From Aquimarina acroporae (GTDB lineage Bacteria > Bacteroidota > Bacteroidia > Flavobacteriales > Flavobacteriaceae), in contig NZ_JALPRE010000006.1 of NCBI RefSeq assembly GCF_023195925.1, forward strand, positions 248,001 through 312,000: a stretch of 64,000 nucleotides of DNA, read 5' to 3'. The notes beneath the pieces are model-generated. The model was not told the origin of the DNA, did no database searches, and saw only the letters and a list, made by a program, of their open reading frames with translations. Made by a program: the position numbers and the translations under genes. Positions 4,566 to 46,009 of this stretch are shown here, piece after piece; positions within the stretch are counted from its first letter, which is position 1; each line of letters starts with the position of its first letter.

Positions 4566-5705
4566 ATGCGAATAAAAATTTATTTTTTAATAATGTTAGT
4601 GTTATTAACACTGACAAGTTTTAGCTATGTATCAGATAGCAGACATAATCTAATGTTAACTAGACATGACAAAGATGAAGCCGAGTTTTTAAAACTTGCC
4701 GAACGATTCGAAAAATACATATGTCATTTAAACCTTCCTGACTGTGAAGGCACAATTATAGCAGATCAATGGGCAATAACAGCCGCACATTGTGCCATAG
4801 AAGTTGTAGACAAATTTAAAAATGGGAAGAAACATTTTGTGATTATAAACGATATTGAAATTGAAGTAGATAAAGTTATAATGCATCCTTCTTGGATGGT
4901 AAGACAAAATAGTGACGACAATGATATTGCTTTAATACATTTAAAGTCAAAACCTATTGGCGCATTAAAAGCAAAATTATATATGGACACTGATGAAGTA
5001 GATAAGCTCATTTACATGATAGGTAGAGGCCACAAGGGTAATGGATTAATTGGAGTTAACGGTAATGATGGAAAACAAAGAGGAGCCACAAATAGGATAG
5101 AAAGAACGACTCAAAAATGGTTATACTGGACCTTTGATCACCCTAATACGAAAACAAAATACCTTACCGAATATGAAGGGATTAGTGGTCCAGGGGATAG
5201 TGGAGGACCCGCTTTTATTCTCAAGAACGATATAGTATACTTGGCAGGAATTAGTTCTGGACAAGATCAAAAAGGCGGTGATGAAGGGCTTTACGGAGTG
5301 GAAGAATATTATACAAGAGTATCTCATTATATAAAATGGATTCATGAAGAAATGACAGGAAAGGGTGATGTCTCTAATGCCAAGTTTAGAACAGAACCTA
5401 AACCTGATGCCATAGATGATAGACCTAAAGTTATCGATGTTGATCCTAAAATCTTCAAACAGTATGTAGGCGAGTATGATGTACAAGGAACTACCGTAAA
5501 GATCTATACAGAAGATTCTGGTACGAAGTTATATTTATTTGTAGCAGACCAACAATCTTATGAACTGGTTCCAACGGGAGAACACCAATTTACTTTTAAA
5601 ATATCCAATGATTACAAAATAGAATTTAAGAATTCAGAAAATGGTGTTTTTCAAGAATTAATTGTAACACAGCCCGATGGCACATACAAAGCTACTCGTA
5701 AATAA
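4566..5705 (+). CDS. Secreted trypsin-like (S1) serine protease with C-terminal beta domain
   Basis: A 379-aa protein with an N-terminal signal segment (IYFLIMLVLLTLTSFS). The S1 catalytic triad is complete: His75 in AITAAHC, Asp120 in DNDIALIHL and Ser212 in SGPGDSGGPAF. Cys53, Cys60 and Cys76 could form disulfides as in chymotrypsin-like enzymes. Residues ~300-379 form a separate all-beta domain beginning YVGEYDVQGTTVKIYTE, similar in style to the small beta domains appended to Bacteroidota hydrolases (DUF3471-like). It probably cleaves proteins outside the cytoplasm. A strong hairpin at 5748-5770 follows the stop codon. Confidence 0.88.
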   Translation: MRIKIYFLIMLVLLTLTSFSYVSDSRHNLMLTRHDKDEAEFLKLAERFEKYICHLNLPDCEGTIIADQWAITAAHCAIEVVDKFKNGKKHFVIINDIEIEVDKVIMHPSWMVRQNSDDNDIALIHLKSKPIGALKAKLYMDTDEVDKLIYMIGRGHKGNGLIGVNGNDGKQRGATNRIERTTQKWLYWTFDHPNTKTKYLTEYEGISGPGDSGGPAFILKNDIVYLAGISSGQDQKGGDEGLYGVEEYYTRVSHYIKWIHEEMTGKGDVSNAKFRTEPKPDAIDDRPKVIDVDPKIFKQYVGEYDVQGTTVKIYTEDSGTKLYLFVADQQSYELVPTGEHQFTFKISNDYKIEFKNSENGVFQELIVTQPDGTYKATRK

Positions 5706-5747
5706 GTAAGGCCAAACCCTATAGATATTAAAAACGATAAAATAAAG

Positions 5748-5771
5748 AACCACGTCTTTTGGACGTGGTTT
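5748..5771 (+). terminator. Hairpin terminator after the serine protease
   Basis: A 9-bp perfect stem, AACCACGTC (5748-5756) with GACGTGGTT (5762-5770), and a 5-nt loop. It lies 43 bp after the protease stop codon. The T-run is short. Confidence 0.6.
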
Positions 5772-5781
5772 ACTGCTTGCT

Positions 5782-6054
5782 GTGACCTCGGCAGATTACC
5801 TCCGGTTTTCCTTTGAGCTTGGTAGTCTAAATGAAAAGTCACAAACCATAGATTTGTGCTTTTTTGTTCGTATTTCGATTCTTGAACGAGTTCAAATCTT
5901 GTACAAACAAAAAAGCTCACCATTGGTGAGCTTTTCATTTTTAAGTGACCTCGGCAGGATTTAAACCGCCTTTGGTGACCACGGCAGTATTTAAACTACC
6001 TATTTGTGACCGCGGCAGGATTCAAACCCTTGCCTTGGTGACCTCCGCAGTGTT
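5782..6054 (-). repeat. Array of degenerate tRNA-Arg 3'-end fragments (putative attL scars)
   Basis: Five copies of a motif matching the T-arm and acceptor 3' strand of the tRNA-Arg at 15866-15939 occur in the same orientation. Motif starts are 5782 (gtgacctcggcagatt), 5945 (gtgacctcggcaggatttaa), 5975 (gtgaccacggcagtattt), 6006 (gtgaccgcggcaggattc) and 6038 (gtgacctccgcagtgtt). The last four are spaced 30-32 bp apart. None has the rest of a tRNA, so they cannot be functional tRNAs. Duplicated tRNA 3' ends are what tyrosine-recombinase elements leave at the distal end of an insertion; several in a row suggest repeated integrations or recombination. Confidence 0.7.
5911..5940. terminator. Perfect bidirectional hairpin
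   Basis: AAAAGCTCACC (5911-5921) and GGTGAGCTTTT (5925-5935) pair perfectly around a short loop, with A- and T-runs on the two sides. It sits inside the tRNA-fragment region and follows no intact gene, so it may be a terminator left from an earlier insertion. Confidence 0.5.
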
Positions 6055-6105
6055 CTAGTGTTTCAGAGAATATGGAGATTTTATAGGTTCTAAAAACTTC
6101 TTCAC

Positions 6106-6130
6106 AAAATCTGTTGACCGAATTGTTGAC
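6106..6130 (+). repeat. 25-bp direct repeat, left copy
   Basis: The sequence starting aaaatctgttgaccgaattg is identical over 25 bp to 15703-15727. It contains GTTGACCG, whose inverse CGGTCAA follows at 6130-6136, making a TTGACCG/CGGTCAA dyad. It sits 52 bp inside the last tRNA-Arg 3' fragment. Confidence 0.8.
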
Positions 6131-6298
6131 GGTCAATTTGAATGCAAATGATGTCATTTGACTTTCAATTATAAAAATAAGAAATCTAAAGGAATATTTT
6201 TCCTATATATGAGCTAAACAGAAGTTATTGAAGTAACCGAAAGTTTTAGTTTAAGATTTGTAGCTGCAAAAATTCTAAAAAATTTGACAAAAAACAAT

Positions 6299-6319
6299 AT
6301 ATTTGATATATGAAATATT
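6299..6319. promoter_or_regulatory. Putative MarR operator, site 1
   Basis: The 21-mer atatttgatatatgaaatat+t lies 70 bp upstream of the first MarR gene. It matches 18 of 21 positions of the site at 9505 and resembles those at 8600 and 9984. The dyad form ATATTT...AAATAT is typical of MarR operators. Assigning it to these MarR proteins is inference. Confidence 0.5.
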
Positions 6320-6389
6320 ATTATGAATAATATTGATTAAAATAAATTAGTTAAATGAAATTATAAATTTAACAGACAAACTCTTTTTA

Positions 6390-6824
6390 ATGGAAAATAG
6401 CCAAAGAAATAGGTCATTAGCAGCTAGGATTAGTGTTGCACAACAATTAGTAAAAAGAAATCAACAAAATGCTCTTAAAAAGTCCGGTATTAATTTGACT
6501 ATGGACCAAATGCTGGTTTTGGAAATACTCTATGAAAACGGTAATATGAATATGACTCAGCTTTCTAAAGGTGTTTGGAAACAGAATACGAATATTACAA
6601 GAATAGTAGATAAGCTTGAAAAGCAGAGTTTGGTGTCAAGAAAGTCAGTAGCAGGAGATAGGAGGGCTAACCTACTGATGATAACCAAAAAAGGGAAAAA
6701 ACATTTTGAAACCCTAATACCATTAGTTATTGAAGTTGATAAAGCGGTTGTAGGTTCTATTACTAAAAAAGAGGAAGAATTAGTGATTATCGCTTTAGAT
6801 AAAATAATTAAACACTTTTCTTAA
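6390..6824 (+). CDS. MarR-family transcriptional regulator (paralogue 1)
   Basis: A 144-aa winged-helix protein of normal MarR length. The recognition region NMTQLSKGVWKQNTNITRIV and the wing GDRRANLLMITKKGKKHF are clear. It is close to the second MarR at 9540-9974; both share LSKGVWKQN, NITRIVDKLE and GDRRANLL, about half of all residues, so they arose by duplication. MarR dimers usually repress their own promoter and nearby genes and release DNA on binding phenolic or oxidising signals. The bestrophin gene starts 43 bp downstream and is probably co-transcribed. The operator candidate is at 6299-6319. Confidence 0.9.
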   Translation: MENSQRNRSLAARISVAQQLVKRNQQNALKKSGINLTMDQMLVLEILYENGNMNMTQLSKGVWKQNTNITRIVDKLEKQSLVSRKSVAGDRRANLLMITKKGKKHFETLIPLVIEVDKAVVGSITKKEEELVIIALDKIIKHFS

Positions 6825-6867
6825 TCTTCGAGATTCTATTTCATTCAACTAAGTAAAACTTCAACTA

Positions 6868-7905
6868 ATGTTTGTAAAAAAGGATTTAGGAATAGCAGGT
6901 ATCGTTAAGTTTAGTGGTATCCATTTAATTTGGTTATCTCTATGGTCTACTCTTGGGGCACTGCTTTATCACTTCACTAAATGGCGATGGCTAGAAGTAC
7001 CTTGGGAACCTATTACCGTAATAGGAACTGCGGTAGCATTCTATGTGGGATTCAAAAACAATAATGCATATGACAGACTTTGGGAAGCTAGAAAAATTTG
7101 GGGTGCAATTGTAAACAGCAGCCGTACCTGGAGTATTAATGTAAAAGGGTATGTTTCAAATCAATTTACAGAAACTGATGTAGAAGAGAAAATTTTAAAA
7201 AAATACCAGAGTACTTTAGTTTTAAGGCATATTGGTTGGCTGTATACGTTGAGAGGACAGTTGCTTAAACCTACACCTTGGGAACACGTTAGTCAAAGGA
7301 AAATTGTAAAAAAAGCAACCCAAAAAAGAATTGAGAGTATAGGAGCAGGTTTATTTGACAAGGATTTTACTATAGAGGATTTGAAAAAATTTTTCGATGA
7401 TAATGAGTACCAAGAATTACGAGGGTTCAGCAATATGGCGACTCAAATACTCGATTATCAGGCACAAAATCTAAAGGAACTTAGAGCTAAGAATATTATT
7501 GATGATTTTCGACATATGGAGCTACAGAATAACTTAAAAGACTTCTTTACGCACCAAGGGCAATGTGAACGGATTAAAAATTTCCCTTTACCAAGACAAT
7601 ACGCCAGTATAAGCAATGTGTTTGTTGGAATTTTTATTTTTTTATTACCGTTTGGATTAGCACCTGAATTTGCAAAACTGGGTGAAAATGCTGTGCTGTG
7701 GTCTATCCCCTTGACTGTTTTAGTTTCTTGGATTTTTCTTATGATGGAACTAGTAGGGGATTATTCGGAAAATCCGTTTGAAGGACTTGGTAATGATATT
7801 CCAATGCTAGCTTTGTGTAGAACGATAGAAATAGATTTAAAAGAAATGATTGGGGAGAAAGACATACCTCCTGTGATAAAAGCAAAAAAAGGTGTTTTAA
7901 TGTAG
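6868..7905 (+). CDS. Bestrophin-family anion channel
   Basis: A 345-aa protein of the bestrophin (former UPF0187/RFP-TM) family, pentameric channels of bacterial inner membranes. Family signs are an N-terminal membrane segment, the conserved NNNAYDRLWEARKIWGAIVN block near residues 68-87, a long helical middle region (HMELQNNLKDFFTHQGQCER) and two late membrane helices around VFVGIFIFLLPFGLAPEF and IPLTVLVSWIFLMMELVGDY, ending in the conserved NPFEGLGNDIPM. Bacterial bestrophins conduct ions; direction and selectivity here are unknown. It sits behind the MarR gene and is closed by a terminator at 7917. Confidence 0.92.
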   Translation: MFVKKDLGIAGIVKFSGIHLIWLSLWSTLGALLYHFTKWRWLEVPWEPITVIGTAVAFYVGFKNNNAYDRLWEARKIWGAIVNSSRTWSINVKGYVSNQFTETDVEEKILKKYQSTLVLRHIGWLYTLRGQLLKPTPWEHVSQRKIVKKATQKRIESIGAGLFDKDFTIEDLKKFFDDNEYQELRGFSNMATQILDYQAQNLKELRAKNIIDDFRHMELQNNLKDFFTHQGQCERIKNFPLPRQYASISNVFVGIFIFLLPFGLAPEFAKLGENAVLWSIPLTVLVSWIFLMMELVGDYSENPFEGLGNDIPMLALCRTIEIDLKEMIGEKDIPPVIKAKKGVLM

Positions 7906-7916
7906 TTAAATACAAA

Positions 7917-7947
7917 ACCCTCTAAATAATATAGAGGGTCTTTTTTT
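7917..7947 (+). terminator. Rho-independent terminator after bestrophin
   Basis: ACCCTCTA (7917-7924) pairs with TAGAGGGT (7932-7939), followed by CTTTTTTT. Confidence 0.85.
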
Positions 7948-7964
7948 ATAAAAAATTCAGATGT

Positions 7965-8513
7965 TTAAATAACTGCAGAATTTTCAGCTATTTTCTTTAC
8001 TTTATTTGCAAAGAGTATTGTGAATAACCCACCAACAACCGATAACAAACCAGCCACTTGAAGTCCTGCTAATTCATTAGAAAGAGCAGTTAGTAATAAA
8101 ATCATTGCTCCTATTGAATTTACCAGACCACTTATAAAACGATAAACGAGCATATTCATTTTTATAGGTCCCTTGGCATTAAGAACTGAAAAACCAGTCA
8201 TAATCTCTATTAAACCATAACACAAAGAAAAATAAGTTACGTATAGCAAATAGGACATTAATGAATCTGGAAGAAAAGCAATGACTACTGCAAATACAAT
8301 AAATAAAACACTTTGAATTTTATGAAAAAAACTAGCGTTTTTTAATTGTTTATTAGCTCCTGCAAATAAAAAAGTGGCTATACCGCTTATTAAGAATAGG
8401 ATGGGTAGTAATACTTTCGAAGTGCCAATACCAATGTCTTTGGAAAATATCATTACTGCACCTGCAAGTGCCATCGATATTCCGCTTGCAATAAGGAAAG
8501 TTGTTTTATTCAT
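7965..8513 (-). CDS. HdeD-like (DUF308) membrane protein
   Basis: A 182-aa protein with six predicted membrane helices arranged as repeated pairs, the layout of HdeD/DUF308 proteins. Examples are FLIASGISMALAGAVMIFSK, VLLPILFLISGIATFLFAG and the final LAGLQVAGLLSVVGGLFTIL. In Enterobacteria HdeD is linked to acid resistance, but the biochemical role is unknown. A second family member (12321-12887) lies in the same island. A MarR-type operator candidate at 8600-8620 lies 87 bp upstream of the start codon. Confidence 0.8.
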   Translation of the reverse strand: MNKTTFLIASGISMALAGAVMIFSKDIGIGTSKVLLPILFLISGIATFLFAGANKQLKNASFFHKIQSVLFIVFAVVIAFLPDSLMSYLLYVTYFSLCYGLIEIMTGFSVLNAKGPIKMNMLVYRFISGLVNSIGAMILLLTALSNELAGLQVAGLLSVVGGLFTILFANKVKKIAENSAVI

Positions 8514-8599
8514 AATATATAGAAATGATTATTTAACTTAAAATTTATGAAGCAAATTTATACAAATAATATTTCACTACAAAAATATTAATTAAATAA

Positions 8600-8620
8600 A
8601 TATTTAATGTGTTAAATATT
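8600..8620. promoter_or_regulatory. Putative MarR operator, site 2
   Basis: A near-perfect dyad, ATATTTAA-TGTG-TTAAATAT (8600-8619), between the HdeD-like gene and the end of the next gene. It matches site 9505-9525 at 19 of 21 positions. Confidence 0.55.
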
Positions 8621-8621
8621 G

Positions 8622-9392
8622 TTATTGTAAATCATTTCTTTCCCCATCAACCCATCTTTGCATTAAAACTCTTTGTGCTGGAGATTCTTGTATTCCACCA
8701 GCCAAAATATCCAAAAACCTGTCCCAAAGATTTTTCTTTTTAGAGGCTTCAAGTTTAATATCCGAGTAAGCCTGTAAATAGTCTTTTTCGTAATCGACAG
8801 CCTCGTCTATTGAGTATTTAAAAGGAATATGCTTAAGAATTTCATCGGTCATTTCATCTACCTCTTCAGGCTTGTACTTTTCAATCATAAGTAACTGAAG
8901 ACCGCAAGCCTCTGCTTTGTTCCTGATATTGGAGCATAGATTATTGGCTTTCAACCATAAGTCGTTCCACTTTTTAAGTTCGTTTTCAGGAAGACAGTCT
9001 TTACCTAGCTGTTGAAGAATATTGAAATTTTCCAAGAGAGCATCAGAGTATTCTTTTGATTCACTCCAATTACTTGAAAGCCCTTCAGCTTTCTTTTTTT
9101 GAATAGCAGAGATTGCAGTATCTAAGATTTCCTTTAACTTATTTTTATTTATGCTCAAGCGTTCCAATTCGCTTTCTAATCTTAGTTGAGTTGATTGATT
9201 TCCATATTTCTCAATTAGGGTTACCGCTTCATTTGTAATCTTATCAATATTTTGCCCTGTTTTCCTAAGGTCATTCCAGTTAGATTCCAATCCAAGTGCC
9301 AAATGTCTAATAGAGGTAACCGCCCTTAACGCTGGATTATATTTAGTCTCTTTTGCCATGGTAATATTCGTATTAATGTTTAAAAACGTCAA
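8622..9392 (-). CDS. Unrecognised cytoplasmic helical protein
   Basis: I do not recognise this family. The frame opens at 9392, but the ATG at 9359 (MAKETKYNPALRAVTSIRHL) is the more likely start, giving 245 aa. There is no signal peptide or membrane segment. The protein is Lys/Glu-rich and largely helical, with a probable coiled coil around residues 50-100 (LRLESELERLSINKNKLKEI) and a conserved-looking tail (LWDRFLDILAGGIQESP, then QRWVDGERNDL). It lies between the HdeD-like gene and the second MarR, all on the minus strand, with a MarR operator candidate about 115-150 bp upstream, so it is probably part of the same regulon. Function unknown. Confidence 0.7.
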   Translation of the reverse strand: MTFLNINTNITMAKETKYNPALRAVTSIRHLALGLESNWNDLRKTGQNIDKITNEAVTLIEKYGNQSTQLRLESELERLSINKNKLKEILDTAISAIQKKKAEGLSSNWSESKEYSDALLENFNILQQLGKDCLPENELKKWNDLWLKANNLCSNIRNKAEACGLQLLMIEKYKPEEVDEMTDEILKHIPFKYSIDEAVDYEKDYLQAYSDIKLEASKKKNLWDRFLDILAGGIQESPAQRVLMQRWVDGERNDLQ

Positions 9393-9504
9393 TTTAAAAG
9401 GAATGAAAAGTACTTTATATGATAAATATCATCTTTTTAAAATTATTTAAATATAATAAATATTAGCTAAACATAAATTAATATTTAATATATTTGTGAA
9501 GTAT

Positions 9505-9525
9505 ATATTTAATATGTAAAATATT
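9505..9525. promoter_or_regulatory. Putative MarR operator, site 3
   Basis: The 21-mer begins ATATTTAATATGTAAAAT. It sits between the end of the second MarR gene and the start of the 8622-9392 gene, so it would control the latter. It matches site 2 at 19 of 21 positions and site 1 at 18 of 21. Confidence 0.5.
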
Positions 9526-9539
9526 ATGATAAAAAAATA

Positions 9540-9974
9540 TTAAGAAAGATGGTCAATAAGTTTTTTTAGGATTTCCAAAACATAAGATTCCTCTTCTTTG
9601 GTTAAGCAGGAAACACTTTGTTTGTAGGTTTTTTGAACTATTGGAACAAGCTCTTTAAAGTATGCGCTTCCTTCTGGAGTGATTGATAGAAGATTAGCCC
9701 TGCGGTCGCCTTCTACGGGTTTTCTTACTAGGAATTTTAGGTTTTCAAGTTTGTCAACAATACGGGTAATATTTGCATTTTGTTTCCAAACACCTTTAGA
9801 AAGCTCTGTCATATTCATATCACCTTGTATGTGTAGCATCTCTAGGACAACCATTTGCTCAAGTGTTATTTTCATTCCAGCCTCTTTAAACGCTTTGTGA
9901 TGATTGCGTTTAAGAAGTTGTTGGGCAATTGCCATTTGAGCGCCTATGGATTTATGTCTAGGACTTTCTTTCAT
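9540..9974 (-). CDS. MarR-family transcriptional regulator (paralogue 2)
   Basis: A 144-aa protein, exactly the length of paralogue 1 and similar throughout: IAQQLLKRNHHKAFKEAG, NMTELSKGVWKQNANITRIV and the wing GDRRANLLSITPEGSAYF. It is transcribed divergently from the ferric-reductase-like gene, the usual position for a MarR repressor next to its target. The shared upstream region holds a weaker operator candidate at 9984-10004. The ligand is unknown. The two MarR proteins may bind the same sites, since the candidate operators are nearly the same near both. Confidence 0.9.
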   Translation of the reverse strand: MKESPRHKSIGAQMAIAQQLLKRNHHKAFKEAGMKITLEQMVVLEMLHIQGDMNMTELSKGVWKQNANITRIVDKLENLKFLVRKPVEGDRRANLLSITPEGSAYFKELVPIVQKTYKQSVSCLTKEEESYVLEILKKLIDHLS

Positions 9975-9983
9975 ACAGTATGA

Positions 9984-10004
9984 ATATTTATGATGACAAA
10001 TATA
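9984..10004. promoter_or_regulatory. Putative MarR operator, site 4 (weaker)
   Basis: ATATTTATGATGACAAATAT lies between the divergent MarR and ferric-reductase-like genes. It matches site 3 at about 16 of 21 positions, keeping the outer ATATTT and AAATAT arms. Confidence 0.38.
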
Positions 10005-10113
10005 TGCATTTTAGAAATTAAAGTGATGAATATTAAAATTTATGTATCGCTATTTAAACTCGTATCTATATGGCTTTATAATATATAATTTAATCCGTAC
10101 AAAACGACTAAAA

Positions 10114-11367
10114 ATGAGAATAATAAAACAAGAACACTATTTTCCAATCATCGTTTTCATCCATTTTATTTTTTGGGGAATCGATATCACATTATATCAA
10201 GGAGACTATGTCTTCGGAGTTCAAAATATTATTGGAGAGGTTTTTTCGTCCTGGGTGATGACTGTTTTCGCTATTAATTTTTTGATGGCTACTAAGGCAA
10301 GATGGGTTGAGCGTATTTTTGGTGGGCTTGATAAAATGTATATGATACACAGAAGAGCAGGTACACTTGCCGTAATTCTATTGATATTACATTTTATTAC
10401 GGTCCCCAAGTCTGAAGAGTTTACCATAGGTAAACCTTTAGGTTTTTTCTCATTATTGTTGATATTGATAGGAGTAGTGTTATCTGTAGCACCAGTATTT
10501 AAGAGAAAACTCAAATATAATAGATGGATTAAAATACATAAGTTAATGGGTATTTTTTATATTATGGGGATAGCTCATTTCTTAAATGTCCCAACACTAA
10601 CGTCTGAATTACCGATTGTTAAGAACTATGTTTTATTGATGTCAATTATTGGTGTTTCAGCTTGGTTCTATAAATCTTTCCTTTTTGGTCTTTTTAATAA
10701 GAAGCTTAAATATTCACTTTCAAGCGTGAAGAATTTCGCAAACGATGTGGTAGAACTGACGTTTTCACCAAAAGAAAAATCCCTGGATTTCGAAGCTGGT
10801 CAGTTTGCTTTTCTTTCAATACCCGGTTTTGGGAATGGAGAATCGCATCCATTTACAATTAGTAATGATAGTTCTGAAAATGACTTGCGTTTTACTATCA
10901 AATCGTTGGGTGACTATACTGCTAATATACAGAGTGCTCTTGCTATAGGTACTGAAGCAAAAATTCAAGGGCCTTATGGTCTTTTTGATTTCAAGAAGGC
11001 TACTCACAAAGAGCAAATATGGCTTGCTGGTGGTATTGGCATAACTCCTTTTCTATCTTTTTTGAGAGTTGTCCCACGAGATTATAAAATAACACTCATT
11101 TGGTCAGTTGGCTCTGTTAAGGAAGCAAATTATAAGGATGAAATTGAAAGTCTGACAGCTGAAAAAGACAATGTAGATTTTGTTGTATGGAACTCTGATG
11201 ATAAAGGGCATTTCTCAATTGGGAAAAAGTACAATGTGATGGATGTTGTAAATAAATCATTCTATGTATGTGGTCCTGAAACAATGCGAGAAAGTTATAT
11301 AAAGCAGCTACGTGAAAAAGGTGTTCTTATGAAAGAGATTCACTATGAGGAGTTTAGTTTTAGGTAG
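10114..11367 (+). CDS. Ferric-reductase-like flavocytochrome (FAD/NAD-binding)
   Basis: The frame is open from 10042, but MRIIKQEHYF at 10114 is the better start, giving 417 aa. Residues ~1-185 hold membrane helices with His residues suited to haem binding (HRRAGTLAVILLILHFITV, IHKLMGIFYIMGIAHFL), a ferric-reductase-like transmembrane domain. Then follows a ferredoxin-reductase unit: a FAD site at ESHPFTIS, the NAD(P) motif AGGIGITPFLSFLR and the late FYVCGPETM. The protein should pass electrons from NAD(P)H through FAD and haem across the inner membrane; the acceptor is unknown. It heads a long + strand operon reaching 15592. Confidence 0.87.
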   Translation: MRIIKQEHYFPIIVFIHFIFWGIDITLYQGDYVFGVQNIIGEVFSSWVMTVFAINFLMATKARWVERIFGGLDKMYMIHRRAGTLAVILLILHFITVPKSEEFTIGKPLGFFSLLLILIGVVLSVAPVFKRKLKYNRWIKIHKLMGIFYIMGIAHFLNVPTLTSELPIVKNYVLLMSIIGVSAWFYKSFLFGLFNKKLKYSLSSVKNFANDVVELTFSPKEKSLDFEAGQFAFLSIPGFGNGESHPFTISNDSSENDLRFTIKSLGDYTANIQSALAIGTEAKIQGPYGLFDFKKATHKEQIWLAGGIGITPFLSFLRVVPRDYKITLIWSVGSVKEANYKDEIESLTAEKDNVDFVVWNSDDKGHFSIGKKYNVMDVVNKSFYVCGPETMRESYIKQLREKGVLMKEIHYEEFSFR

Positions 11368-11372
11368 ATAAG

Positions 11373-11804
11373 ATGAAAACGATAACATTAGAAATATTTA
11401 CTTTGTTTGCTTCAGGTCTGTCCTTTACCTTCTTCTTTTTTATAGCACTTTGTTATCATAAACCAGAATTCTGTAATGGTGAAGATTCTTTTGACAATGA
11501 TATTAGGAATGCAAAAAGAGCTCAAACGGATGAGATGTTTAGCAGATACGGACTTAACATTATTCTTCTACTAATTGTTATTACTTGGCTTTTTACGAGA
11601 GAAGATTTTTGGCTGGTAGGTTTAATTCCTTTAATGATTTTAGTTCCGTTATGCAGAAACTATTTGAAACTTAAAAATAATAACCCTAAGGAAAATAAAA
11701 CAGTTGAAAGTAAGATAAAAAGATTCCACGCTTTAAGGATGTTCTTTTCTTTGGCACTAATGTTTATCTGTGTTTTTGCAATTATAATTGGGCTTGATAA
11801 ATAA
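11373..11804 (+). CDS. Four-helix membrane protein, DUF1772-like
   Basis: A 143-aa protein with four predicted membrane helices (FTLFASGLSFTFFFFIALCY, INIILLLIVITWLF-like segment, FWLVGLIPLMILVPL, MFFSLALMFICVFAIIIG). It starts 5 bp after the flavocytochrome. Layout and length match its neighbour at 11819, and both end in a helix after a conserved RF/LHxxR stretch (IKRFHALRMFF here), so they look like distant paralogues of the DUF1772 (anthrone-oxygenase-like) superfamily. The function is unknown; its place suggests a partner of the flavocytochrome. Confidence 0.65.
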   Translation: MKTITLEIFTLFASGLSFTFFFFIALCYHKPEFCNGEDSFDNDIRNAKRAQTDEMFSRYGLNIILLLIVITWLFTREDFWLVGLIPLMILVPLCRNYLKLKNNNPKENKTVESKIKRFHALRMFFSLALMFICVFAIIIGLDK

Positions 11805-11818
11805 TTCGAATAAAAAAT

Positions 11819-12256
11819 ATGATAGGGATTCAAACTATTCTAAAAATTATTGTATTGATAGGAACAGGACTTGTTGCTGGTTCAACATTCTACATTTCTT
11901 TGGTTGAAATTAAAGTGCGAACTCAAACAAACGAAGAAGAGCATTTAAAAAATTGGCAAATGGTCTTTCCAAAAGCTAGCCGAATTCTGAAAACCTTCGG
12001 AATAATTACGGTGATATTTATTTTGCTTGCCTGGTATTTTACTCAGGATATATTGTGGATTATAAGTGCTATTCCATTATTTCTATTAGTGCCTTTTACA
12101 GCAATATTTATATCAAAAACAAACGCCGAACTAGCGAATCTCAAAGATGTAAGAGGTACCATACCTAAGATACATAAATGGGATAAGCTTCATCATGTCA
12201 GGACAGTATTAACTATTCTGAGTTTTGTTATAGCTGTAATTGCATCAACTATTTAA
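11819..12256 (+). CDS. DUF1772-like membrane protein
   Basis: A 145-aa, four-helix membrane protein. GLVAGSTFYISLVE in helix 1, the ISKTNAELANL stretch and WDKLHHVRTVLTILSFVIA near the end are typical of DUF1772, the superfamily of small membrane proteins related to noranthrone monooxygenase. Actual activity in bacteria is unproven. It lies 14 bp after the similar gene at 11373, so the pair may work as a heteromer (inference). Confidence 0.75.
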   Translation: MIGIQTILKIIVLIGTGLVAGSTFYISLVEIKVRTQTNEEEHLKNWQMVFPKASRILKTFGIITVIFILLAWYFTQDILWIISAIPLFLLVPFTAIFISKTNAELANLKDVRGTIPKIHKWDKLHHVRTVLTILSFVIAVIASTI

Positions 12257-12320
12257 CAATTGAAAAGATATAAAGAAACTGAAAATTTTAAAGAGTAAAC
12301 ACTAATTAAATCAAAGTATA

Positions 12321-12887
12321 ATGAACAATCAATCCACTAGTAGCGCAAAAGAATCAATCAAATATTGGTATCTACCACTAATCGTCGGGATATTTTTAAT
12401 TGGAGGAGGGATTAAAGCCTTTATTTCACCAGACAAAGCTTTTTTAGCATTAAACAATCTTTTGAGTTACGCTTTTTTGGTCATAGGCGTAATAGAAATT
12501 CTATTTGCATTTTCTAATAAAAATAAAATTGATAATTGGGGCTGGGTTTTGGTTTTAGGAATTATAACTACCTTAATAGGAATCTTGTTACTGTCTCACC
12601 CTGAAGTTTCATTAATAAGCCTCGCATTATATGTTGGTTTTATTCTTTTGTTCCGTTCGTTCGGTGCAATGGCGATGGCCATAGATTTAAGAAGTTACGG
12701 AGAAAAGAATTGGGTAGTACTAATGATAATTAGTGTTCTAGGAATAATTTTCTCATTTATCCTAATATGGAATCCCAAGTTTGTTGGAATGACTTTTGTA
12801 TTCTGGATAGGACTTTCATTAATCTCCACAGGGTTTTTCAGTGTATTGGCCGCTTTTAGAATGAAAAATCTTCACAAAAACTTTTAG
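12321..12887 (+). CDS. HdeD-like (DUF308) membrane protein, second copy
   Basis: A 188-aa protein with six predicted membrane helices in pairs: YWYLPLIVGIFLIGGGIKAF, LLSYAFLVIGVIEILFAF, WGWVLVLGIITTLIGILLL, a GFILLFRSFGAMAMAI segment and two more. This is the HdeD/DUF308 layout shared with the gene at 7965, but similarity between the two is low, so they are not a recent duplication. It is in the flavocytochrome operon, just before the sulfatase. Confidence 0.82.
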   Translation: MNNQSTSSAKESIKYWYLPLIVGIFLIGGGIKAFISPDKAFLALNNLLSYAFLVIGVIEILFAFSNKNKIDNWGWVLVLGIITTLIGILLLSHPEVSLISLALYVGFILLFRSFGAMAMAIDLRSYGEKNWVVLMIISVLGIIFSFILIWNPKFVGMTFVFWIGLSLISTGFFSVLAAFRMKNLHKNF

Positions 12888-12891
12888 GTAA

Positions 12892-14559
12892 TTGAGTAAG
12901 AAATCGAAAAGTGAAATTTTGAAGTCACTAACCCTAAAATTAGTAGTATTTAGTTTTGTTTTAGTAGGGTGTAAAACAGAAAAAGTAAAATTTGAGAAAC
13001 CAAATATCCTTTTTATTGTAACTGACGATATGGGGTATTCTGATTTTTCACCTTTTGGAGGAGAGATAAACACACCAAATCTTCAAAAGCTTGCTAGTGA
13101 AGGTGTGCGCATTTCTAATTTCTATACCGCCCCCACTTGTTCTCCTGCGAGGTCAATGTTACTTACGGGAGTTGATAATCATTTAAATGGTCTAGGTGCA
13201 ATGGATGAGTTTATCATAGATATGACACCTCATATTCCAGCACTAAGGGAACGAGATGGATATTTAGGAGCATTGAATGATAGTGTTATGACAATACCAG
13301 AAGTCTTAGTGAGAGAAGGATACCAGAGTTTTATAAGTGGGAAATGGCATTTAGGTGAACATAAGGACGAATGGCCATATACAAGAGGTTTTGACAAGAG
13401 TTACGTGTTGCTTCAAGGGGCAAGTTCACATACCGGAAGTCCATTAATGCCAATTACTAAAGGTTCTTTGGCAGAATTGGTTGAAAATGATATGAGGGTA
13501 AACCCACGAAAGGACTTCTATTCTTCCCTGCACTTTACAGATAAGTTCCTGGACTATCTAAAAGAAAGAGATAAAGCAAAGCCATTTTTTGGATATTTGG
13601 CTTTTACTGCACCTCACGACCCTTTAGAATGCCCTGAAGAATATTCAGATAAGTATAAAGGATTATACGATAGTGGCTATGACAAATTAAGAGTAAAGCG
13701 TTATCAAGAATTAGTCAAACTAGGTATATTTCAAAAGGATATCACATTAGGTCAAAAGCTTGCGCCGTCTTGGGAAAGCCTATCTGAAGATGAAAAATTA
13801 AGACTTTCAAAATCTATGGAAGTATATGCGGGAATGATTGACTTTGTAGATGAGCAAATAGGTCGTGTCTTTGAATACCTGAAATCGACCAACCAATATA
13901 ATAATACCATTATTGTTTTTCTTTCCGATAATGGTTCAGCATATCAAACTCTTGAAGAGTATTCAGATTCTTCACCCGAGTATATAAAAAACAATTTTGA
14001 TACATCTTTTGATAATATTGGCAGAAATAATTCTGCGGCTTCCATAGGCGAAGGTTGGGCGCAAGCAAGTATGTCGCCATTCAGATTTTATAAGGGAAAA
14101 ACTGGAGAAGGAGGCATAAGAACACCGGCTATTATTAAATGGAATGGAATGAGCAAAGAGCTAAAAGGAACTATAGATACTGAGGCAATAGGGCATATTT
14201 ATGATTTAGCTCCAACTCTTTACGAACTTATTGGGGTTAATTATTCAAAGCTAATAAATACTGATAAAGTACATTCATTATCAGGTAAGTCTCTAGTCCC
14301 TTTTCTAAAAGGAGATTCTGCAAACGTGCATACAGATTACCTTGGATGGGAATTGCATGGTAATAAGGCGCTTAGAAAAGGAAAGTGGAAAATTTTATGG
14401 GTATTTGAGCCTGGTAATAATCATTGGGAGTTATATGATATTGTAACAGACCCTGGAGAAACAAAAGACCTGTCAAAAGTACATACATCAGTTTTTCAAG
14501 ACTTGTTAAATGACTGGGAAGAGTATACTACAACCAAGAAAATCATCAATCTATTTTAA
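12892..14559 (+). CDS. Sulfatase (arylsulfatase-type) lipoprotein
   Basis: A 555-aa protein of the formylglycine-dependent sulfatase family. A lipobox LVGC puts the lipid Cys at residue 27. Metal-binding Asp45-Asp46 lie in FIVTDDMGYSDF, and the FGly motif CSPAR starts at Cys83, the form oxidised by FGE or anSME. SGKWHLGEH and FLSDNGSAYQTL provide further active-site residues. It should hydrolyse sulfate esters or related groups outside the cytoplasm; the substrate is unknown. No sulfatase-maturing enzyme is in the window. The start is TTG at 12892, 4 nt after the preceding stop. Confidence 0.92.
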   Translation: MSKKSKSEILKSLTLKLVVFSFVLVGCKTEKVKFEKPNILFIVTDDMGYSDFSPFGGEINTPNLQKLASEGVRISNFYTAPTCSPARSMLLTGVDNHLNGLGAMDEFIIDMTPHIPALRERDGYLGALNDSVMTIPEVLVREGYQSFISGKWHLGEHKDEWPYTRGFDKSYVLLQGASSHTGSPLMPITKGSLAELVENDMRVNPRKDFYSSLHFTDKFLDYLKERDKAKPFFGYLAFTAPHDPLECPEEYSDKYKGLYDSGYDKLRVKRYQELVKLGIFQKDITLGQKLAPSWESLSEDEKLRLSKSMEVYAGMIDFVDEQIGRVFEYLKSTNQYNNTIIVFLSDNGSAYQTLEEYSDSSPEYIKNNFDTSFDNIGRNNSAASIGEGWAQASMSPFRFYKGKTGEGGIRTPAIIKWNGMSKELKGTIDTEAIGHIYDLAPTLYELIGVNYSKLINTDKVHSLSGKSLVPFLKGDSANVHTDYLGWELHGNKALRKGKWKILWVFEPGNNHWELYDIVTDPGETKDLSKVHTSVFQDLLNDWEEYTTTKKIINLF

Positions 14560-14560
14560 T

Positions 14561-15592
14561 ATGACAAAAATTACAAAGTTTACTCAAATTAGTATCATTT
14601 TGGTAGCGGGGATAATAGCATTGATTTATGGAAAAAGCTTTTTAATTCCATTAATATTTTCTTTAATCCTTTGGATATTGATAAAGAAACTAAAATCTAC
14701 CCTTAACAAAATTAAAGTGCTGAGAGAATTTGTGCCCAATTGGGTGAAAAATGCCCTCCTTACTTTTATTATTGCGTTGGTTGTTTACTTTGTAAGTGGT
14801 ATCATTTCTTCGAATATCAGTACAATGGTAGGTCAGTATGATGTTTATGAAGCAAATTTCAACGCCCTATTAACGACTATTAATGAATCTTTTGGTATCG
14901 ATTTGAAGACTTTGATTGGGGATGAAGATATTAGTAGTACACTTAGCGATTTAATTGAGCCTATAGTTTCTTCACTCACTAGTTTAGTAAGCAATGCTTT
15001 TATGATTATTCTATACTTACTTTTTATATTCTTGGAAGAAACTAATTTTGGAAAAAAACTTCGGTTAGTCTTTAAAGAAGATAATGAATTTAAAGAAGTT
15101 TCATCCACTCTAATAGAATTGGAAGAGTCCATCTCCAATTATTTAGGAGTAAAAACATTGGTGAGTCTAATAACTGGAGCATTAAGCGCAGTGACATTAT
15201 CAATAATCGGGGTTGATGCACCTGTGTTTTGGGGTCTAATTATTTTCATCTTAAATTATATTCCCACTATAGGCTCACTTATAGGAACATTATTCCCTGC
15301 AGCTTTCTGTCTGTTACAATTTACCAACACAACACCGTTTATTTTAACTGTAGTTATTGTTGGGTTAATTCAAGTGATAGTTGGAAATATTTTAGAGCCC
15401 AAATTGGTTGGTAATTCGATGAATTTAAGTGCACTCGTAGCTATTTTGGCATTATCGCTTTGGGGATTAATTTGGGGTACAACAGGTATGATATTGAGCG
15501 TTCCTATTACTGTTATAATGGTGATTATATTTTCCAAATTCAAGAGTACAAAGCCTGTGGCGATTATGCTTTCAGACAAGGGAGAGATATGA
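14561..15592 (+). CDS. AI-2E-family (PerM/YdiK-like) transporter
   Basis: Start chosen at the ATG at 14561, one base after the sulfatase stop codon, giving 343 aa (an earlier in-frame ATG at 14510 lies within the sulfatase). About seven to eight membrane helices: ISIILVAGIIALIYGKSFLI at the start, a soluble loop (~90-150) and a conserved C-terminal core with FWGLIIFILNYIPTIGSLIG, NILEPKLVGNSMNLS and LWGLIWGTTGMILSVPITVI. These are signatures of PF01594. Family members export varied substrates, and some are Na+(Li+)/H+ antiporters. It ends the island operon. Confidence 0.92.
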   Translation: MTKITKFTQISIILVAGIIALIYGKSFLIPLIFSLILWILIKKLKSTLNKIKVLREFVPNWVKNALLTFIIALVVYFVSGIISSNISTMVGQYDVYEANFNALLTTINESFGIDLKTLIGDEDISSTLSDLIEPIVSSLTSLVSNAFMIILYLLFIFLEETNFGKKLRLVFKEDNEFKEVSSTLIELEESISNYLGVKTLVSLITGALSAVTLSIIGVDAPVFWGLIIFILNYIPTIGSLIGTLFPAAFCLLQFTNTTPFILTVVIVGLIQVIVGNILEPKLVGNSMNLSALVAILALSLWGLIWGTTGMILSVPITVIMVIIFSKFKSTKPVAIMLSDKGEI

Positions 15593-15679
15593 GTGCTTTA
15601 TTATAAAAATAAGTGCTATAACTCCATTTTTTATGCCTATAAGTAAGCTTCAAGCTACATGACTTTTTTTTCAGTTAAT

Positions 15680-15698
15680 CGGTCAACACTGTTGACCG
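15680..15698. repeat. 19-bp perfect dyad of TGTTGACCG
   Basis: CGGTCAACA (15680-15688), C, TGTTGACCG (15690-15698): a perfect inverted repeat just before the right copy of the 25-bp repeat. It may be a recombinase or regulator binding site (inference). Confidence 0.6.
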
Positions 15699-15702
15699 AT
15701 TA

Positions 15703-15727
15703 AAAATCTGTTGACCGAATTGTTGAC
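15703..15727 (+). repeat. 25-bp direct repeat, right copy
   Basis: Identical over 25 bp to 6106-6130, same orientation, about 9.6 kb apart. It lies 138 bp from the tRNA-Arg 3' end. The two copies bracket all island genes. Confidence 0.8.
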
Positions 15728-15774
15728 CTTTTTCTAATAAATTTTGATTGCGATTAGTGCCGTGATAAAAGTCA

Positions 15775-15810
15775 AAAACCCTTCAAATACTGATATTTGA
15801 AGGGTTTTAG
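15775..15810. terminator. Bidirectional terminator
   Basis: AAAACCCTTCAAATA (15775-15789) pairs perfectly with TATTTGAAGGGTTTT (15794-15808) around CTGA. It closes the operon that ends at 15592, and on the minus strand lies downstream of the tRNA-Arg. Confidence 0.8.
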
Positions 15811-15828
15811 TTTTATTTAGTGCTCTAG

Positions 15829-15860
15829 GCCAGAATCTTGCTGGATTCAAACCTTGAACC
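15829..15860 (-). repeat. Degenerate tRNA-Arg 3' fragment beside the intact tRNA
   Basis: The stretch ending gctggattcaaacct (about 15838-15853) repeats the T-arm of the adjacent tRNA (gcaggattcaaacct), about 33 bp before it, the same spacing as in the left array. Confidence 0.5.
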
Positions 15861-15865
15861 TTCAG

Positions 15866-15939
15866 TGACCTCGGCAGGATTCAAACCTGCAACCTCTTGA
15901 GCCGTAATCAAGTGCACTATTCAGTTATGCTACGAGGCC
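15866..15939 (-). tRNA. tRNA-Arg (anticodon ACG)
   Basis: A 74-nt cloverleaf on the minus strand: acceptor GGCCTCG/CGAGGTC (one G-U), D-arm GCAT/GTGC, anticodon stem CTTGA/TCAAG with loop TTACGGC (anticodon ACG, reading CGN after A34-to-I editing), T-arm GCAGG/CCTGC. CCA is not encoded. Odd: residue 19 is A instead of G and residue 56 is U instead of C, so the usual G19-C56 tertiary contact is replaced by a possible A19-U56 pair. Its 3' end faces the putative island. Confidence 0.9.
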
Positions 15940-16076
15940 TTTTTTGCTATTGCGGGTGCAAATATATGTCTTTTTAAATAACTACCCAAGGATATTTTTA
16001 TTAAATATTTTTCGAAGTAAAAATTAAGTTTCCATAACGAATCTATGGTATATTTGAGCGAAATTAATTTTGATAT

Positions 16077-45470: not shown

Positions 45471-45542
45471 GGCCCGTTCGTCTATCGGCTAGGACGCCAG
45501 GTTTTCATCCTGGTAAGAGGGGTTCGATTCCCCTACGGGCTA
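45471..45542 (+). tRNA. tRNA-Glu (TTC), copy 1
   Basis: A 72-nt cloverleaf: acceptor GGCCCGT/ACGGGCT, anticodon stem CCAGG/CCTGG with loop TTTTCAT (anticodon TTC), T-arm GGGGT TCGATTC CCCT. CCA not encoded. First of four identical copies. Confidence 0.97.
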
Positions 45543-45613
45543 CGAATTGAAATTTTAATTGCAGATTTAGAGTGAAAGCTATAAATTTGCAATCCTTGAA
45601 AAAGGAAAATAAT

Positions 45614-45685
45614 GGCCCGTTCGTCTATCGGCTAGGACGCCAGGTTTTCATCCTGGTAAGAGGGGTTCGATTCCCCTACGGGCTA
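45614..45685 (+). tRNA. tRNA-Glu (TTC), copy 2
   Basis: Identical to copy 1, exactly 143 bp downstream of it, with an identical 71-bp spacer before it. Confidence 0.97.
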
Positions 45686-45756
45686 CGAATTGAAATTTTA
45701 ATTGCAGATTTAGAGTGAAAGCTATAAATTTGCAATCCTTGAAAAAGGAAAATAAT

Positions 45757-45828
45757 GGCCCGTTCGTCTATCGGCTAGGACGCCAGGTTTTCATCCTGGT
45801 AAGAGGGGTTCGATTCCCCTACGGGCTA
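45757..45828 (+). tRNA. tRNA-Glu (TTC), copy 3
   Basis: Identical to copies 1 and 2, again at a 143-bp step with the same spacer. Confidence 0.97.
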
Positions 45829-45899
45829 CGAATTGAAATTTTAATTGCAGATTTAGAGTGAAAGCTATAAATTTGCAATCCTTGAAAAAGGAAAATAAT

Positions 45900-45971
45900 G
45901 GCCCGTTCGTCTATCGGCTAGGACGCCAGGTTTTCATCCTGGTAAGAGGGGTTCGATTCCCCTACGGGCTA
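45900..45971 (+). tRNA. tRNA-Glu (TTC), copy 4
   Basis: Identical to the other copies; after it the sequence diverges into the rpsT leader. Confidence 0.97.
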
Positions 45972-46009
45972 CAAATTTTTAGTAGTAAGAAATTTAATTA
46001 GCAGAGAAG

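Follow-up and report, generated by a model that had tools for sequence, protein, structure and literature searches.

How does a block of eleven genes come to lie against the 3′ end of a tRNA gene, as an integrated genomic island would, when it encodes no integrase? We address this question for a 64,000-nucleotide stretch of the Aquimarina acroporae genome (contig NZ_JALPRE010000006.1, positions 248,001 to 312,000; hereafter, the window), in which a segment spanning about 5945 to 15864 (hereafter, the element) abuts the gene for tRNA-Arg(ACG). A preliminary description of the window had recognized the layout of a tRNA island, with an intact tRNA gene at one end and displaced 3′ fragments in the same orientation at the other, and had proposed that the island was either degenerate or else mobilized by an enzyme not linked to it. 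The layout is as described. We consider it likely that the element is a non-autonomous island in the tRNA-Arg(ACG) 3′ end, similar to a cis-mobilizable element (CIME), and that its lineage has been moved by the integrases of other islands. Where other genomes, contigs, and loci must be told apart, they carry our own G, C, and L handles.

An insertion at the 3′ end of tRNA-Arg(ACG)

The target gene, tRNA-Arg(ACG) (15865–15939, minus strand; found by ARAGORN, Rfam tRNA score 58.9 bits), has its 3′ end directed toward the element, and copies of this 3′ end in the same orientation begin at positions 5782, 5945, 5975, 6006, and 6038. A 22-bp search allowing up to three mismatches returned three sites in the window, where 100 shuffles gave an average of zero, and the same search of the whole genome found only those three window sites again.

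All 20 relatives fetched from the genus have apt and its next gene to the right of tRNA-Arg(ACG), and 0 of the 20 has a match to the element genes on the left of the tRNA (4–17 kb examined in each); the shared ancestral cargo that the preliminary description had offered as a counter-explanation is thus not seen. The empty site that it had anticipated does exist, in two relatives that join sequence left of 5945 to the tRNA-Arg and apt. The joined flanks (window 5701–5944 plus the tRNA) align unbroken with G012 over 239 bp at 97.1% identity, and with G051 over 241 bp at 85.9%. A copy of window 5782–5944 directly joins tRNA-Arg(ACG) and apt in G012, and the matches of this genome to window 5782–5967 and 15860–15975 overlap in the attachment core; therefore, the insertion runs from about 5945 to 15864, which we regard as nearly certain. 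GC content showed no contrast and was dropped as evidence for an island.

Probable recombination sites at the two ends

The end far from the tRNA begins with u1 (5945–5974, plus strand), the first unit of an array of tRNA-like ends. Its exact 17-bp core is the putative far attachment site (attL-like), and the unit is the point where both flanks overlap in the empty-site alignment. Three further units follow on the plus strand, u2 (5975–6005), u3 (6006–6037), and a truncated u4 (6038–6060), which are the ACGG, GCGG, and TCCG variants of the tRNA 3′ end, respectively, and beyond them lies an arm pair with a signature (6104–6140, plus strand) that aligns across eight loci. The near end is closed beside the tRNA by another tRNA-like unit, u0 (15833–15864, plus strand; tRNA-like piece 15840–15861). 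Farther inside is a near-end recombination module (15682–15728, plus strand), consisting of an inverted repeat, GTCAACA-n-TGTTGAC, and then an arm pair. Between module and u0, a hairpin read directly from the sequence (15775–15808) is probably a tRNA-Arg terminator that arrived with the element; a hairpin occupies the matching position in the G155 element described below and also precedes the tRNA in relatives.

The exact 25-bp repeat previously noted inside both ends is present, with its left copy at 6106–6130 in the far end and its right copy at 15703–15727 in the near end. A search of the 5.18-Mb genome for its 19-bp heart, allowing up to two mismatches, gave two sites, both of them here (reversed control, 0). 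The role of this repeat can be refined: it is probably a pair of integrase arm sites rather than the attachment core. The TGTTGACC site pair of the window lies 161 bp from u1, in the position that the arm pair occupies in integrase islands.

Two other leads on these sequences were followed. The inverted repeat invited a reading of the 25-bp repeat as a MarR operator, which was set aside, though not disproved; against it, the module adjoins integrases regardless of MarR genes and keeps a near-constant distance from tRNA-Arg. Elsewhere in the genus, TGTTGACCnnnnTGTTGACC occurs at up to one mismatch in eight other genomes of 66, at loci (1.6–3 kb) with neither tRNA nor integrase, and by look in coding DNA.

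A hotspot shared with integrase-bearing islands

Many of the 52 genus genomes carry the core GTGACCTCGGCAGGATT (up to one mismatch) again on the contig of the tRNA; in some of them it lies 5.7 to 165 kb from the tRNA, in others 137–169 bp. In the integrase islands at this site, a far core of about 45 bp is followed after about 163 bp by an arm pair and then by a tyrosine integrase, and the identical arm pair is repeated before the tRNA in the islands for which both ends were compared (G025, G014, G042, and G029). A second island type (G043 and G027) has TCGTAAAC arms and an integrase at the tRNA end. These two arm types correspond to integrase clades with 86% and 73% internal identity and about 22% identity between clades, each arm sequence pairing with its own clade. 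One integrase island, in G041, carries an inverted repeat and arms resembling the near end of the window.

Of 397 family genomes, 6 contain the near-end module pattern, against 0 for the reversed control, and a wider contig collection has it in 34 named stretches. Its hosts are Flagellimonas, Allomuricauda, Lutibacter, Maribacter, Croceitalea, Nonlabens, Euzebyella, Gelidibacter, and metagenome-assembled genomes, two of the latter named only Flavobacteriia or Bacteroidia. ARAGORN places a tRNA within 1.5 kb of the module at 26 of the 34 loci, and the nearest is always tRNA-Arg (21 ACG, 4 TCG, and 1 TCT). We judged integrase status at 31 of these loci, excluding L142, L164, and L174, which have less than 500 bp inside the island (the genome of L164 has an intact integrase there). 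An intact integrase of at least 414 aa is present at 21, a broken one at four, and none at six (L144, L155, L158, L163, L165, and L175). The integrases of this matching clade share 61–91% mutual identity, and their genes start within about 70 bp of the module. At the far end, the integrase-bearing island of G447 has 21 bp in common and then diverges.

Several further arrangements were seen. On contig C23 of G041, an 18.9-kb integrase-less segment (L100 280–19146) with TGTTGAC arms adjoins the integrase island of that genome, has the arms of that island, and lies between two attachment copies. Its cargo, by look, comprises a SusC/SusD pair together with glycoside hydrolases and with sulfatases, of which one was confirmed as PF00884, and whole polysaccharide loci may travel as such segments. 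Compared with G004 (L042), G001 (L041) has about 5.6 kb extra between the tRNA and shared genes of 94–99% identity, and in G002 (L040) part of that insert is displaced by another 5.7 kb; our profile detected no integrase in either. Away from tRNA-Arg, a 22-bp piece of its 3′ end lies beside an integrase next to tRNA-Pro(TGG) in two genomes (L073 5676 in G018 and L074 4552 in G044).

Integrase-less elements with the same ends

The reported absence of an integrase from the element holds. Neither integrase nor relaxase was found among its 11 scanned open reading frames (ORFs) of at least 140 aa, and the integrase family PF00589 has only three matches in this genome (C1:344625, C8:19601, and C50:386088), none inside the element. 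The C50 integrase is about 122 kb to the right, and two of the three are, by our own label, Xer-like. We considered the single integrase that is not Xer-like as the helper and rejected it: it has 20–24% identity to the matching clade, and its 20-kb stretch contains neither a core (up to two mismatches) nor an arm pair. This genome has no helper island at the site of the element.

The same ends occur with other genes between them. In another genus, G155 (probably locus L158) carries a 10.2-kb element at tRNA-Arg(ACG) whose near end equals that of the window across the module except for one missing base, with 24 bp of u0 identical, and whose far end is exactly as in the window for about 30 bp. 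Its cargo, by look, consists of AraC-type regulators, an aldehyde dehydrogenase, short-chain dehydrogenases/reductases, and a hydrolase; it has no match to the window cargo proteins and no integrase. The far-end signature is present at eight loci (the window, G155, G083, G281, G237, G461 C13, G460 C33, and G460 C112), and its pattern occurs in 5 of 397 family genomes (reversed control, 0). An integrase was found in none of the eight far-end stretches, some of which are cut by contig ends. Among the 34 module loci, u0 occurs at two (L144 and L158), both without integrase, and in the three elements that have u0 the last cargo gene stops 80–141 bp before the module, with no integrase relic. For these comparisons, the integrase profile drew on 13 sequences from these loci.

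How the element may have moved

A scheme that would account for these ends begins with an element that encodes no integrase and retains the DNA sites that an integrase requires: an attachment core, arm-type sites at both ends, and a terminator serving the tRNA. In this lineage the ends would be conserved and the cargo exchangeable. A helper island in the same cell would make an integrase of the TGTTGACC-arm clade, which would bind the arms and join the ends into a single attachment site, attP, a joined form of which is seen in L144. The attP would then recombine with a tRNA-Arg 3′ end, and the helper island would later be lost or would never have settled. The binding of the arms, movement in trans, and any continuing movement are predictions of this scheme. 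Of the two options in the preliminary description, we lean toward the unlinked enzyme, because other genera have elements that share these ends, carry different cargo, and lack an integrase.

Several observations weigh against this proposal. The genome now lacks an integrase of the matching clade. Four of the 31 judged module loci have a broken integrase, and four more have neither integrase nor u0. The far attachment core of the G155 element is missing, and five of the eight far-end loci run into a contig end or have no clear near end, so that integrase absence covers the available DNA. A profile of 13 sequences could miss a distant recombinase. Finally, no excision, circle, or transfer was observed.

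Some of these points would fit a simpler history, in which an integrase-bearing island arrived, lost its integrase by deletion, and is now fixed. Broken and missing integrases do occur at such ends (4 and 6 of the 31 loci, respectively), G048 retains a 206-aa integrase remnant, and the missing matching integrase in this genome is as expected. We nevertheless judge it unlikely that the element is one decayed island, because elements in other genera share both ends, carry other cargo, and also lack an integrase; in addition, the 90 bp from the last gene to the module contain no remnant. Exchange of cargo by homologous recombination at conserved flanks, through natural transformation or transduction and with no site-specific recombinase, could draw on ends that are near-identical across genera and on homology supplied by the tRNA, apt, and terminator units, but is improbable given that the conserved ends are about 30–60 bp, short for exchange between genera, and that the breakpoints are located in the attachment core.

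Integrase-less islands are easily filed as dead. Constant ends with exchangeable cargo across genera of a single family point instead to a class that borrows its integrase, and because the arm motif names the helper clade, the borrowing claim is testable. Such borrowing would suggest one way in which genes for sulfatases, redox proteins, and regulators spread among Flavobacteriaceae.

An ordered array of tRNA ends

The displaced tRNA copies had been described as degenerate. They are indeed copies of the tRNA end, and comparison with L144 indicates a conserved, ordered array split by the insertion rather than random decay. L144 has the near end, u0, u1, u2, u3, u4, and the far end in a single run, like a joined attP; the two ends of its contig show no overlap, and the arrangement is compatible with a circle or a tandem. 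Unit order and the 30–32 bp spacing are identical in the window and L144, which come from different organisms. The u2 unit has the same place in L144 and in Flagellimonas meridianipacifica, where u1-u2-u3 is followed by a tRNA-Arg(ACG) ending TCCG. In Flagellimonas onchidii, u1-u2 is followed by a tRNA-Arg(TCG) ending ACGG, and u3-u4 and the far-end signature are on another contig. The array may also serve as a landing site, because an integrase-bearing island adjoins it in both Flagellimonas species. Two cores about 30 bp apart were found in 4 of 33 module-locus genomes (reversed control, 0).

The tRNA-Arg(ACG) pattern has matches in 288 of 397 family genomes. Among the matches listed, the tRNA-Arg ends are mostly TCGG and TCGA, with ATGG, ACGG, ACGA, GCGG, GCGA, TCCG, and TTGA also present; therefore, all four types of unit in the window correspond to real tRNA ends.

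If u0–u4 were functionless fossils, collected from earlier hosts at successive insertions, each type of unit would be expected to match an actual tRNA-Arg 3′ end of some family member, as it does. The length of the array also varies, with two units in G460 C112 and G469. This history is quite plausible for the array, short of being probable, and the agreement of order and 30–32 bp spacing between the window and L144 speaks against it.

More tentatively, the array might act as a set of alternative keys: tandem mimics of tRNA-Arg ends, about three helical turns apart, with acceptor-stem variants for different alleles (TCGG, ACGG, GCGG, and TCCG or TCCA), from which a borrowed integrase would use the unit that fits the host. 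The split falls at u1 where the host tRNA ends TCGG (the window, and the near end of G155), at u4 where it ends TCCG (F. meridianipacifica), and at the third unit where the host tRNA-Arg(TCG) ends ACGG (F. onchidii). G281 does not fit, since its tRNA ends TCCA like u4 of L144, yet its far side keeps two degenerate units. If the array worked in this way, one integrase-less element could settle in hosts or isoacceptors with differing tRNA-Arg sequences, and if its units were several attachment sites, the range of target tRNAs could be widened by DNA alone.

Relation to known elements

The kind of element proposed here is already known from CIMEs and other helper-dependent elements (PMC5704250, PMC3146451, PMC11389934). 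CIMEs and site-specific accretion are defined in PMC5704250, and the element resembles the CIMEs defined there in lacking integration and transfer genes while keeping attachment sites, in occupying a site common to integrase-bearing islands, and in tandem stacking at one tRNA. It differs in two respects. A CIME is described there as the decayed element of its own locus (PMC5704250), whereas integrase-less ends recur here in several genera with other cargo, which would speak against a local origin by decay; and an ordered tRNA-end array belongs to the ends here, unlike those of the CIMEs defined in that source.

At the Dehalococcoides ssrA gene, 15 islands without an integration module are reported in tandem with 16 that have one, all at a single RNA gene's 3′ end, and the authors propose cis-mobilization (PMC3146451). 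That system involves a serine recombinase and tmRNA; here a tyrosine integrase clade, tRNA-Arg, and the array are involved. The 10K island of Riemerella, for which integration and excision were shown, has an Arg-tRNA site and a tyrosine integrase (PMC6764341). It is like the element in its 10-kb size, Arg-tRNA target, and related bacterial host, but carries its own integrase.

Clusters of attC sites lacking integron-integrases (CALINs) and miniature inverted-repeat transposable elements also consist of ends served by an enzyme from another element (PMC11389934). The element differs from them, as described there, in its direct-orientation cores and tRNA target, and no attC-like sites or terminal inverted repeats were seen. 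Direct-repeat cores 30–32 bp apart, with a core at each end of an eleven-gene block, are not the arrangement of an integron cassette or CALIN. As far as the literature we searched extends, the new parts are the integrase-less ends common to several genera and the array of tRNA ends; a narrow literature search found no publication on attachment-site arrays, which is weak evidence that they are unpublished.

Cargo genes

The gene survey of the element covered ORFs of at least 80 aa, and all 11 of at least 140 aa were scanned for families; three have no Pfam family or a weak match. From the far end, the genes encode a first MarR regulator (6390–6824, plus strand; PF01047), a bestrophin-like channel protein (6868–7905, plus; PF25539), an HdeD/DUF308-like membrane protein (7965–8513, minus; PF03729 below the cut-off), a protein of 256 aa from a TTG start that matches nothing in Pfam or NCBIfam (8622–9392, minus), and a second MarR regulator (9540–9974, minus; PF01047). 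These are followed by a ferric-reductase-like transmembrane flavoprotein (10042–11367, plus; PF01794, PF08022, and PF00175), a small protein with no family match in Pfam or NCBIfam (11373–11804, plus), an anthrone-oxygenase family (DUF1772-like) membrane protein (11819–12256, plus; PF08592), an HdeD/DUF308 membrane protein (12321–12887, plus; PF03729), a sulfatase (12892–14559, plus; PF00884), and an AI-2E family transporter (14510–15592, plus; PF01594), whose 3′ end falls 90 bp short of the near-end module. The contents given in the preliminary description are thus largely borne out: two MarR regulators, bestrophin, flavoprotein, sulfatase, and AI-2E transporter are present, only the gene at 11819–12256 of two called DUF1772-like has the match, and of two HdeD-like proteins one is above the Pfam cut-off and the other below it. 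The membrane, redox, and sulfatase genes, under the two MarR regulators, might point to a stress or substrate response; the single stress and redox module of the preliminary description is conjectural.

Homologs of the 8622–9392 product adjoin a flavoprotein in contig C51 of the same genome and in G378. The C51 locus (L140 8263–11050) holds a second set of flavoprotein, unknown protein, and HdeD-like protein, with 50, 45, and 42% identity; a gamma-like terminator separates its last gene from tRNA-Arg(TCG), which is about 110 bp away. In G378 the set is accompanied by a bestrophin (38.7%), and there is no tRNA within the 20 kb around it. Some of the cargo genes therefore recur together, in one case next to a different tRNA-Arg. 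The bestrophin was unsuitable for tracing the cargo: homologs occur in 34 of 46 genus genomes, but the loci in the six closest relatives lack the other island genes.

No phage family was found among the scanned proteins in Pfam, and the exact far-end pattern occurs in 0 IMG/VR contigs. PADLOC gave a single match (E-value 0.0094), which we disregarded, and Rfam matches beyond tRNA were all below threshold.

Short units beside the element

Left of the element lies a 163-bp core-plus-terminator unit (beta unit, 5782–5944), which abuts tRNA-Arg in G012 and G051 and was the neighbor of the tRNA until the element inserted. This unit may itself have moved recently, because apt of G012 is only 71% identical to that of the window. 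Next to it, positions 5736–5781 form the terminal part of an earlier island or unit (gamma type), formerly at the tRNA; window 5737–5794 matches the tRNA-abutting ends of L040, L042, L054, and L070 at 90–93%.

Tandem units of 137–169 bp, each a tRNA-Arg core plus a terminator and of at least three sequence types, are present at tRNA-Arg(ACG) in several genus relatives. Short-unit loci comprise window 5782–5944, L030 1017–1255, L069 3316–3480, L053, L054, L070, and L071. One short unit shows 97% identity between species that share only 71% in apt, and the short units look like miniature mobile elements. Elsewhere in the window, four tandem tRNA-Glu(TTC) genes lie at 45471–45972, with their starts 143 bp apart.

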